Assembly: GCA_012520995.1 (NCBI GenBank)
Contig: JAAYNI010000013.1
Coordinates: 1-64,000 of the forward strand
DNA length: 64,000 nt
From: Candidatus Rifleibacteriota bacterium
GTDB taxonomy: Bacteria; Muiribacteriota; Ozemobacteria; Ozemobacterales; Ozemobacteraceae
Reading direction: 5' to 3'
Made by a program: the position numbers and the translations under genes. A model generated the notes under the pieces. The model did not search any database, was not told the DNA's origin, and saw only the letters and a list, made by a program, of their open reading frames with translations. How positions within the stretch are numbered: the stretch's first letter is position 1; each line of letters opens with the position of its first letter. Shown here piece by piece: positions 228 to 8,633 of the stretch.

Positions 228-1246
228 GTGAACTTAGCGACAGTTAAGACAAGTTCTTTAACAACGAAATAACCGGTCAGCCGCAAAATTGCAAGCTTGG
301 CAGCTACGGCAGGGCTCTGAAACATACCGCTTAAGATTCGTACAGGTGTTTGGTGACAAGCAAACCGACGGGTCGGAGAAACAATAATCCGTGCGTGTTC
401 GTTCAGCTCTAATGTCAAGATGCAGTATAAGGCAAAAAGTCCATGGGGGGAGGCATCCCTGGGAGCAATTTCAGGAATGTTAACTCTGACGCATATTATA
501 CTCCGGGACAGCGTCAAAAACTGTGTGGGAGGAAGAAAAGGGTGCGTCACTGTGCGATACCCCGAAGGACATAAAAATCAAGAGAGCCGACCTGTCACGT
601 CGGGCGAGTGAAATCGCTTGCCGTATCACAGGCACTTTGAAGCGGGAGCAAAGCTTCAAGGCGGATCGAAGCTCATGACGGGAACTGGCGGATAAAGAGC
701 AATCTTTGCCGCAAAGGGCGCAAGACTGAATGGTCGGGCGACGCTTAAGCGTCGGCGGTCGCTGCGGATATTGAAAGCCGCAAAAGGTACTGCGAAGAAA
801 TCCGTGGAGGGCAGACAACCGCGAAGAAGCATGGCAAACGGGAACGCTTGTTTGTCGCATCATGGCGGTGATGGCGCTGAGAGGGCCGAAACCTAGGAAG
901 GCGCTTGGAATTTCAAACCAATGGAGTAAATGCGTCGAACCTTGAAGCAGGCTGAAGCTCATAAGAGGATATAAAGTTTCCCTATTAACATTTAGGAACT
1001 TTGTGGTCATGGCTTATAAGCCTCATAGTCGTAGAAACGGCAGAGGGGCTTCCCATACTAACCGATAGGTATGGAGAGCATGGTCATGCCAACACTCTAG
1101 AGGGCATGTAACTGCAAGAAGGGGCTGGATTTGAATGGCGACATTCATCTTCAACCGTATTTATGAAAGTCTTCGGATAGGAAAACCGGTTAATTAAGTT
1201 CACAGGAACCCTCGGGCGGAGTAAAATCCTCTCGAGGGTTCTTTCT
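228..1246 (+). ncRNA. Large structured non-coding RNA (~1 kb), class not recognised
   Basis: The segment has no credible coding frame but looks like a compact transcript. The predicted +1 begins GTGAACTTA (228-236), which pairs perfectly with TAAGTTCAC (1195-1203). Many local helices follow: 603-610/615-622 (8 bp with one-two wobbles), 637-643/653-659 (7 bp), 688-712, the palindrome at 740-753, 973-1002, 1011-1022, 1053-1058/1069-1074, 1085-1090/1103-1108, and 1132-1147, which is capped by a GCGA (GNRA) tetraloop. It ends in an intrinsic terminator. Base composition is clearly richer in G+C than the A/T-rich DNA on both sides. Its size puts it with the giant bacterial RNAs (OLE, GOLLD and ROOL classes), but no phage genes, tRNA cluster or OLE partner gene is nearby. 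I see no group II intron domain V, tmRNA or RNase P signature. The function is unknown. The existence of a transcript is inferred. Confidence 0.8.
1206..1246 (+). terminator. Intrinsic terminator of the large ncRNA
   Basis: GAACCCTCG (1206-1214) and CGAGGGTTC (1233-1241) form a perfect 9-bp stem, extended inside by GGCGGA/TCCT pairing and followed by a T-rich tail (TTTCTTTT). It stands two bases after the closing helix of the RNA and sets its 3' end. Confidence 0.85.
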
Positions 1247-6750: not shown

Positions 6751-7375
6751 TATCCACAGATGGACACAGATTTACACAGATGAAGAAATCAATGACAAAA
6801 ATTTTGTCTTACGTTGATGATTCAAAGCCCAACTGACCAAATAAATTCGCTCTGTCTGGCTTTGTATCATCGACTTGAGGAAAAACAAAAGTTGTTTTTC
6901 CTCAAATTGGTTTCTTAATTTAGAATAAATAAGCTGATTAAATGAGAGAATTTTTAATATACTTTTCACTGAGAGTTTACAATACACATCTTTTAAATTT
7001 GAGAGCAGTAGTTCCGAAATTAAGTAGTAAAGCTTTTTTTAGACTAGATGCTTTAAGATAGTTAATGACCTGAGCTTCTTCCTTGGAAGTTGTTTTATCT
7101 AAAGCTTTTATTTCTACCATAACTAAGTCAAAGCAAAGAAAATCTGCTTTGTAAAAGGTTTTGAGTTTATTCCCTCGATAATATAGGGGCAACTCTTTCT
7201 CACGCTCAAATGGAATACCTCTTGCTTGAAACTCTAACGTTAATGCTTCCTGATAAACTGCTTCCAAGAAACCGCAACCAAGTTCAGAGTGAACAGCGAT
7301 AGCAGCCCCTATAATTTTATAAGTTCGTTCGTCTCTTTTAAAAATATCTGTGTTCATCTGTGTAATCTGTGGATA
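6751..7375 (-). mobile_element. GxxExxY cassette, copy 2 (intact gene)
   Basis: This 625-bp unit is in opposite orientation to copy 1. Its ends (6751-6783 and 7346-7375) equal those of copy 1 base for base. It contains an intact GxxExxY gene, the same 3' flank, and about 95 extra bases (6803-6890) in place of the outer half of the copy-1 hairpin. It sits exactly between the stop codon of one gene (7380) and the start of murJ (6735). Copies 1 and 2 bracket the methyltransferase-PfkB-transporter-murJ block in a composite-like arrangement. Confidence 0.6.
6977..7357 (-). CDS. GxxExxY family protein (PDDEXK-like fold)
   Basis: A 126-residue protein with the motif GFLEAVY (GxxExxY) at residues 31-37, then KTFYKADFLCFD and VMVEIKA. 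The D...E-x-K spacing fits a PD-(D/E)xK nuclease core. Length is typical of the family. The ATG at 7357 is embedded in the CACAGAT repeat. Reading could extend 22 codons upstream, but that part is translated repeat and the end of another gene. The family is widespread, often multi-copy, and of unproven function. The nuclease-like core plus repeat-bounded packaging hints at a role in spreading or maintaining the repeat, which is inference. Confidence 0.8.
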   Translation of the reverse strand: MNTDIFKRDERTYKIIGAAIAVHSELGCGFLEAVYQEALTLEFQARGIPFEREKELPLYYRGNKLKTFYKADFLCFDLVMVEIKALDKTTSKEEAQVINYLKASSLKKALLLNFGTTALKFKRCVL

Positions 7376-7379
7376 GAAA

Positions 7380-8633
7380 TCAGGTTTTTCTTTCTTTTTG
7401 TTTGGCTGCAGGGAAGAGCACATTATTCAGTATTAGCCTGTAACCCGGGCTGTTCTTATGGAGAGCCAAGTTTGTCGGTCCCTCGCCGACCAAGTGGCTT
7501 ACGTCGGCCGGGTCGTGCCCGCCGTAGAAGCAGAAAAAGCCTTTGCCGTAATCGCCTCTTAAGTATTTGACAGAGACTCCGTCATTGTTTTCAGCAAGTA
7601 TAGTGATATTTGATTTAACGAGACTCTTTCGGAAAGCGGTTGTCTGACCGAAAAATCCGGCTATGACGTTTCTGTGGTTTTGATTAAGCATTGTAGGGAT
7701 TGGATCAAGTTTGGCGGAGAAGTCAAAGAGCATAAAGGTGCCAGGCTCAGAGACGTAGTTGTTGGAGGTATCTATGTCCGAATATTCGTAAATCATAGGG
7801 TTTGTAATCAATTTGAAGTTCTCGAAAGCCAAGCTTTTTGAGTAGTCGAGCTTGCTTTGTGCCAAGGGATCTATTGAGTCGCCGTCTATTTCGGGCGCAA
7901 CTATGTCAACTCCGTCTGCGGCCAAGGCTATGTCAAAAGTGTCCGCGGCTGAACACATAGCAAATAGAAAGCCGCCGTCAGCAATGAATTGCTTGAATTT
8001 TCTGGCTACGGCCAACTTAAGCTGAGGAATCTTCTTGAAGCCGAACTTTTGAGCTTCCAGAAGTTCTCGTGAGACTTCGGCTCTATACCAGGAAGCATTT
8101 CTGTAAGCGGCATAGAATTTGCCCAGCTGGCCTGTAAAATCTTCGTGGTGAAGATGTATCCAGTCAAATTTGTTTATGGCATCGGCCATAACTTCGCGGT
8201 CGTAGAACTTGTCATGGGGAATCTTTGCATAATCCAGAACCAGTAAAACCGCGTCATCCCAAGGCTTTTCATCCGGCGGTGAGTAAACTCCGATTTTAGG
8301 AGCTTTTTCAAGGAGAACTTTTTCCATGTTCTCTTCTTCGATGGTTGCTAAAATAGAGGCATATTCAGAGTCTGAGACAGGCTTTGTCGTTATGCCCCAG
8401 AGGTTGGCTTGTTTTTCTATTCTGCCGTCGGAGTCAAACATGAAGGAACCGCCTCTGTAATTGAGGAGCCACTCAACATTTTCTTTGAGCTCGTCAAGAA
8501 CCCAGTAGGCCAAGCCGTAGGCTCTGAGGTGGTCGTTTTGAGTGTCATCCATTGGAACCATAAGCTTTCCGGCTTGAAGAACGCTAGCGGAAAGCATTAT
8601 AAATAGCAATGCTAAAGCTGCGGTTTTTTTCAT
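7380..8633 (-). CDS. Secreted amidotransferase-fold protein (often labelled asparagine synthetase B)
   Basis: This 417-residue protein has a clear signal peptide (MKKTAALALLFIMLSASVLQAG) followed by KLMVPMDDTQNDHLRAYGLAYW. That opening is typical of exported proteins in Bacteroidetes-like genomes that databases call asparagine synthetase B. No synthetase domain is evident. The body, with GGFLFAMCSAADTFDIALAADGVDIV and later GFFCFYGGHDP, resembles a class I glutamine-amidotransferase/DUF4159-like flavodoxin fold. It starts five bases after the TPR gene and is probably the last gene of the MoxR-Bat operon. That places it at the cell envelope with the vWA and TPR proteins. Its biochemical role is unknown. 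Confidence 0.7.
   Translation of the reverse strand: MKKTAALALLFIMLSASVLQAGKLMVPMDDTQNDHLRAYGLAYWVLDELKENVEWLLNYRGGSFMFDSDGRIEKQANLWGITTKPVSDSEYASILATIEEENMEKVLLEKAPKIGVYSPPDEKPWDDAVLLVLDYAKIPHDKFYDREVMADAINKFDWIHLHHEDFTGQLGKFYAAYRNASWYRAEVSRELLEAQKFGFKKIPQLKLAVARKFKQFIADGGFLFAMCSAADTFDIALAADGVDIVAPEIDGDSIDPLAQSKLDYSKSLAFENFKLITNPMIYEYSDIDTSNNYVSEPGTFMLFDFSAKLDPIPTMLNQNHRNVIAGFFGQTTAFRKSLVKSNITILAENNDGVSVKYLRGDYGKGFFCFYGGHDPADVSHLVGEGPTNLALHKNSPGYRLILNNVLFPAAKQKERKT

Follow-up and report, generated by a model that had tools for sequence, protein, structure and literature searches.

The window, by which we mean the whole stretch of 64,000 nucleotides analysed, begins at the edge of its contig and carries near that edge a segment that we read, at a probability of roughly 0.7, as a stand-alone gene for a new class of RNA whose synthesis is aided by a boxA-like element and which lies at the core of a large housekeeping particle, either RNA-only or RNA-protein. 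The existence of this RNA as a class is near certain from the comparison of homologous sequences, and the same comparison establishes a non-coding gene with its own predicted promoter and terminator signals and a multi-domain fold closed by two helices, P1 and P2. Our best reading is that the RNA is vertically inherited and would work like the large RNA OLE, to which it appears to be unrelated. The features of the window copy are as follows.

193 to 221, + strand: sigma70-type promoter TTGACA-N17-TATATT, read from the sequence, with a counterpart in 24/24 homologues
228 to 1203, + strand: structured RNA, about 976 nt in the window copy, defined by covariance models R1 and R2 and a 300-pair consensus
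228 to 236, + strand: 5' strand GTGAACTTA of the outer closing helix P1, pairing with 1195-1203 in a perfect 9 bp
254 to 264, + strand: boxA-like element TTCTTTAACAA, aligned with a GATCTTTGANA-type element in 24/24 copies
270 to 277, + strand: 5' strand TAACCGGT of the inner closing helix P2, pairing with 1185-1192 in a perfect 8 bp
347 to 362, + strand: hairpin (helix 11) with a conserved GNRA tetraloop, GTGA (353-356); 5/6 pairs changed on both sides
487 to 549, + strand: domain closed by 487-493/543-549 (helix 17); two-sided change in 8/8 consensus pairs
598 to 623, + strand: long hairpin (helix 24), strands CGUCGGGCGA/UCGCUUGCCG, loop GUGAAA; two-sided change in 8/9 pairs
653 to 830, + strand: central domain closed by 653-657/826-830 (helices 27-34)
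845 to 846, strand not applicable: deletion junction in the alignments, where a domain of about 150 nt present in the other 23 copies is missing
928 to 1162, + strand: 3' domain (helices 48-52)
1138 to 1141, + strand: second conserved GNRA loop, GCGA in the window copy; GNRA in 22/24 copies
1185 to 1192, + strand: 3' strand ACCGGTTA of P2, complement of 270-277
1195 to 1203, + strand: 3' strand TAAGTTCAC of P1, perfect complement of 228-236
1206 to 1249, + strand: intrinsic terminator hairpin and T-rich tail, about -25.7 kcal/mol

A preliminary description of this DNA had claimed a promoter whose start point is the first base of a 9-bp perfect helix, with a strong terminator two bases after that helix closes, and a base-by-base check bore this out. 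The -35 hexamer TTGACA lies at 193-198 and the -10 hexamer TATATT at 216-221 with a spacer of 17 nt, which puts the expected +1 at 228, the G of GTGAACTTA, and the terminator hairpin GAACCCTCG...CGAGGGTTC occupies 1206-1241, starting two bases past P1, with the T-rich tail after it. When the promoter consensus was searched at 11/12 matches, just one further + strand site was found in the 64 kb. Directly upstream of the RNA, TTGAC[A/T] followed at 16-18 nt by a -10-like hexamer was present in 24/24 copies, and a terminator-like hairpin lies downstream of most homologues. The G+C content is 0.49 in the RNA gene and 0.30-0.32 in its flanks. The minimum folding energy of the window copy gave z values of -4.3 on the + strand and -4.4 on the - strand relative to shuffled sequence and, these being nearly equal, folding energy in this copy picks no strand and would not by itself prove the claim; in four homologues (L010, L018, L020 and L113) it clearly favours the + strand. 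Most homologues are about 1.07-1.2 kb long whereas the window copy is about 976 nt. Four things had been overlooked in the preliminary description, namely P2, the boxA-like element, a 22-nt inverted repeat outside the gene and the absence of the domain of about 150 nt.

The fold was derived from an alignment of 24 full-length copies (A3), for which RNAalifold gave a multi-branched consensus of 300 pairs in 59 helices. Paired cells made up 89.1% of this consensus compared to 76.8% in shuffled and 37-42% in slid alignments, pairs with changes on both sides numbered 212 against 141 expected, doubly changed cells numbered 1,067 against 363 expected, and in 0/500 shuffles was any of the observed pairing or covariation values attained. 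These counts are partly inflated since the consensus was drawn from the same alignment on which it was counted, and for this reason a structure-free scan was also run, in which an all-against-all stacking covariation score was compared with alignments evolved without structure on the inferred tree. Against this tree-based null 23 pairs in 14 groups were found at E<0.05, among them 662/821 and 672/811 in the central domain, 958/1104 and 959/1103 in the 3' domain, and pairs in the 347..362 hairpin, the 487..549 domain and the 598..623 hairpin. The plain all-against-all G-test, which has low power at 24 sequences, put 1 pair above every null value and 3 at E<=1. The 3' domain is built from the helices 928-934/1156-1162, 940-943/1119-1122, 947-950/1112-1115, 957-960/1102-1105 and 964-967/1095-1098. 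The closing helices covary as well: in P2 (helix 3) 7/10 consensus pairs changed on both sides among homologues, and P1 stays complementary despite divergence, being GTTGAAC/GTTCAAC in L009, GTTGAGTGATCGAT/ATCGGTCACTCAAC in L017, GTTGAATGACC/GGTCATTCAAC in L111 and GTGAACTTA/TAAGTTCAC in the window. The local helix that had been described as capped by a GNRA loop is the hairpin with GTGA at 353-356, and two more such loops are conserved, so that three hairpin loops have a GNRA sequence, in 23/23, 22/24 and 19/24 copies respectively. Thus the homologues and their covariation support the earlier claim of a stand-alone large structured RNA. In L010, seven symmetric 3x3 purine-rich internal loops lie between short helices and recur through the consensus; we identified no match between them and a known motif.

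The RNA is present in a single copy in its own genome (2.84-Mb assembly), and pieces in collinear order were detected by BLAST in 13 further genomes of its family. Covariance models R1 and R2, built respectively from A1 and A2, two neighbouring conserved blocks that lie within and beside the 3' domain, were searched in 40 genomes of the phylum, 24 from Ozemobacteraceae (Ca. Riflebacteria) and 16 from other families. R1 and R2 both matched, collinearly, the same 23/24 Ozemobacteraceae genomes, representing 11/11 genera, and matched 0/16 genomes of the other families; the sole family genome without a match, G019, is 78% complete. A strict core motif searched over 84,980 species matched 14 contigs, which come only from Ozemobacteraceae genomes, the records being labelled Ca. 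Riflebacteria, Ozemobacter and similar, with a few evidently mislabelled MAGs. On present evidence the class is therefore restricted to this family, and its occurrence in nearly all members suggests a basic cellular job. The RNA evolves faster than 16S rRNA (62% compared to 89% identity in one genome pair). The copy number is one in most genomes, two in G005 and up to four in genus g11. In g11 there are 3-4 copies (L113-L116 in G018 and L117-L119 in G014), several of them at contig ends, as expected for repeats, and the RNA of this genus has an extra hairpin at the start of its 5' end. The two G005 copies, L020 and L109, are clearly different and are not sisters in the tree, which points to an old duplication or a transfer. 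In phage, plasmid and viral collections no credible homologue was found, and two strict patterns gave no viral match; a looser pattern gave 6, which were judged to be chance because R1 finds none of them and R2 scores <=19.6 bits in these motif-selected stretches.

The boxA-like element sits between P1 and P2 in 24/24 copies with the consensus GATCTTTGANA, and it includes several invariant columns; few positions in the alignment are better conserved. It resembles the boxA of rRNA, which in E. coli is TGCTCTTTAACAA. A 16S search in the genome of the window recovered none, so the comparison was made in relatives: in G010 the 16S leader contains a similar sequence, GATCCTTTGACATC, and in the leader of G017 no clear or convincing boxA was found. 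In rRNA, NusB-S10 binds to boxA, which is held to keep Rho from terminating the untranslated transcript (PMC4807359), and active 30S cannot form without the leader-trailer helix (PMC10250234). A boxA-like element together with closing helices, as in pre-rRNA, leads us to infer a mode of synthesis. Judging from the sequence match, the element may, like its rRNA counterpart, recruit the antitermination complex of NusB-S10, and this would protect the 1-kb untranslated transcript from Rho. The complex would also keep the 5' end of the RNA close to the polymerase while about 1 kb more is made, and the 3' strands of P1 and P2, on emerging, would then close the molecule as the leader-trailer helix does in pre-16S rRNA.

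Could the segment instead be a protein gene, a mobile element or a relic? Its open reading frames are of 176 and 109 aa on the - strand and 63 aa on the + strand, and since the longest is antisense one could suppose that the antisense frames are a real gene and the RNA signal incidental. This we regard as practically negligible, as the Pfam search of these frames gave no match, the minus-strand frames of the homologues range erratically in length between 66 and 201 aa, the three codon positions show no difference in substitution rate, most indels have a length not divisible by 3, and the conservation is explained by the covarying structure; no coding homologue or coding signal was found, in keeping with the earlier statement that no protein frame is credible. 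That the RNA is a mobile or phage-derived element is very improbable. It would have as its ends the perfect 22-nt inverted repeat outside the gene (118-139/1258-1279), and the several copies in g11 and the two in G005 would fit it, but this sequence is part of an interspersed repeat, ATCTGTGT, that matches the window 9 times where 0 are expected and also lies near another PDDEXK_3 gene, and the single copy in most genomes, the lack of phage, plasmid or viral matches and the occurrence in all 11 genera, which fits vertical descent, all speak against it. Two nearly identical PDDEXK_3 (PF13366) genes, at 1276-1605 and 6977-7423, adjoin the ATCTGTGT repeat, and in the copy beside the RNA the domain's N-terminal part is missing, as are about 20 residues from the interior. 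Downstream of it, at 1663-1721, there is a 28-nt inverted repeat with a 3-nt loop and 93% complementarity. A further alternative accepts the family RNA as real and takes the window copy to be a decaying pseudogene, which is unlikely but has to be taken seriously. The window copy forms a divergent lineage of its own on a long branch, with 49-60% identity to the others; besides the domain of about 150 nt, the loss of which leaves 53 bases without partners, only 73% of its remaining consensus pairs are standard compared to 86-98% in most others, and orphaned strands such as GGCGCTGAGAGGG are still conserved, as after a recent deletion. These pairs and the missing domain may mean that the window copy is decaying or has a different fold. 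However, its promoter, boxA-like element, P1, P2 and terminator are all intact, 48 pairs show compensatory change with respect to the majority, and some of the missing pairs are misalignment, P2 being perfect when read by eye. The loss may be a recent deletion, a domain-reduced variant or an assembly fault; a separate RNA piece elsewhere was considered and rejected, as a conserved motif of the missing domain was not found elsewhere in the genome at <=3 mismatches. In g11, L117 (G014:C182) has a deletion unlike that of the window copy, the missing part being about 130 nt from the first domain, and the loss of a different domain suggests that parts of the RNA may be dispensable.

The remaining alternatives concern what kind of RNA this is. 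A search with Rfam 15 and a tRNA scan of the 64 kb found no family at gathering scores and no tRNA, and at lax thresholds, to E=10 in the window copy and E=5 in six divergent homologues, only chance matches were obtained; the models for OLE, GOLLD, ROOL, HEARO, group I/II introns, RNase P, tmRNA and rRNA gave no match in the window or the six homologues. RNase P or tmRNA in disguise was ruled out as both were located elsewhere in the genome. The known families are thus excluded at the sensitivity available. A divergent member of a known large class (OLE, GOLLD, ROOL, HEARO or raiA) missed by these models is still conceivable in that the size class, the ornate style and the GNRA loops are the same and classes of this kind may be difficult to recognise from one phylum to another, but with no match at these thresholds, a length nearly twice that of OLE and, unlike GOLLD and ROOL, no tRNAs beside the RNA in the window or at 23 homologous loci and no phage or viral homologues, we consider it quite improbable. 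The earlier suggestion offered a choice between a new class and a distant member of OLE, GOLLD or ROOL; the first half is the better supported, and for the second there is no Rfam match. Because the RNA fails every Rfam 15 covariance model as well as the GOLLD/ROOL context test, it is classed on its own. A literature search found no paper linking Riflebacteria with a noncoding RNA and no such large-RNA class, subscription journals and some preprints lying outside this search. It is also doubtful that the molecule is a large ribozyme or ribozyme derivative, with catalysis in place of scaffolding: the multi-domain fold, the conserved purine-rich internal loops, the GNRA loops and invariant nucleotides throughout the molecule would suit one, but the group I/II intron and RNase P models gave no match, the gene lies between a promoter and a terminator of its own and in no splice-site context, and no catalytic motif was found.

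As to function, synteny revealed no partner gene shared across all genera, the neighbours differing among genera, so that any proposal rests on analogy. Same-strand upstream genes cluster in 7 loci, 48-306 nt from the RNA in 6 of them. In L009, L011, L017, L019, L035 and L110, which represent several genera, the protein encoded on the same strand just upstream resembles, by eye, an outer-membrane beta-barrel with a C-terminal F. By elimination and analogy the mature RNA would have a housekeeping role, as the core of a large particle made of RNA only or of RNA and protein. For a particle-forming or OLE-like RNP-scaffold role specifically, also argued from elimination and analogy, we put the chances at about even, and we lean slightly towards the broader statement that this is a near-universal housekeeping RNA, made like rRNA, that stands outside the translation apparatus and forms either a large particle or a ribozyme. 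Few bacterial RNA classes near 1 kb with an ornate conserved fold exist, and their functions are mostly open. The Riflebacteria RNA exceeds OLE in length, occurs almost throughout its family, usually as a single copy, has no link to phages and carries a boxA-like element of the rRNA type beside its closing helix. It is an independent test case for the roles of giant RNAs in cells, and boxA is suggested as a mark of other untranslated transcripts that need completion and folding.

Among known systems OLE (Ornate Large Extremophilic) of Bacillota, an RNA of about 600 nt found within a ribonucleoprotein complex (PMC9723947, PMC12286853), is like the Riflebacteria RNA in being chromosomal and stand-alone with an ornate structure and highly conserved nucleotide stretches, the Riflebacteria RNA being apparently vertically inherited. 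It differs in that the Riflebacteria RNA, at about 1.07 kb, is nearly 2x as long, belongs to another phylum, has a boxA-like leader, has no covariance-model match to OLE and has no shared partner gene found nearby. GOLLD and ROOL are likewise large ornate RNAs, of unknown function, GOLLD being often over 800 nt, but they are encoded by phages or prophages, often near tRNAs (PMC12286853), whereas the Riflebacteria RNA has neither tRNA neighbours nor a phage or viral match and is near-universal in one family. OLE, GOLLD and ROOL all form homo-oligomers, those of GOLLD and ROOL being RNA-only (PMC12286853). The resemblance to an OLE-type large RNA, and likewise to synthesis of the pre-rRNA type, is offered as an analogy and is separate from class membership. 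Unlike in pre-16S rRNA, the RNA enclosed here gives no match to the Rfam SSU/LSU models, is something other than rRNA and has a higher rate of evolution; what the two have in common is the putative arrangement of the leader and trailer, in which a boxA follows soon after the promoter and stands beside long-range helices that join the ends (PMC4807359, PMC10250234).
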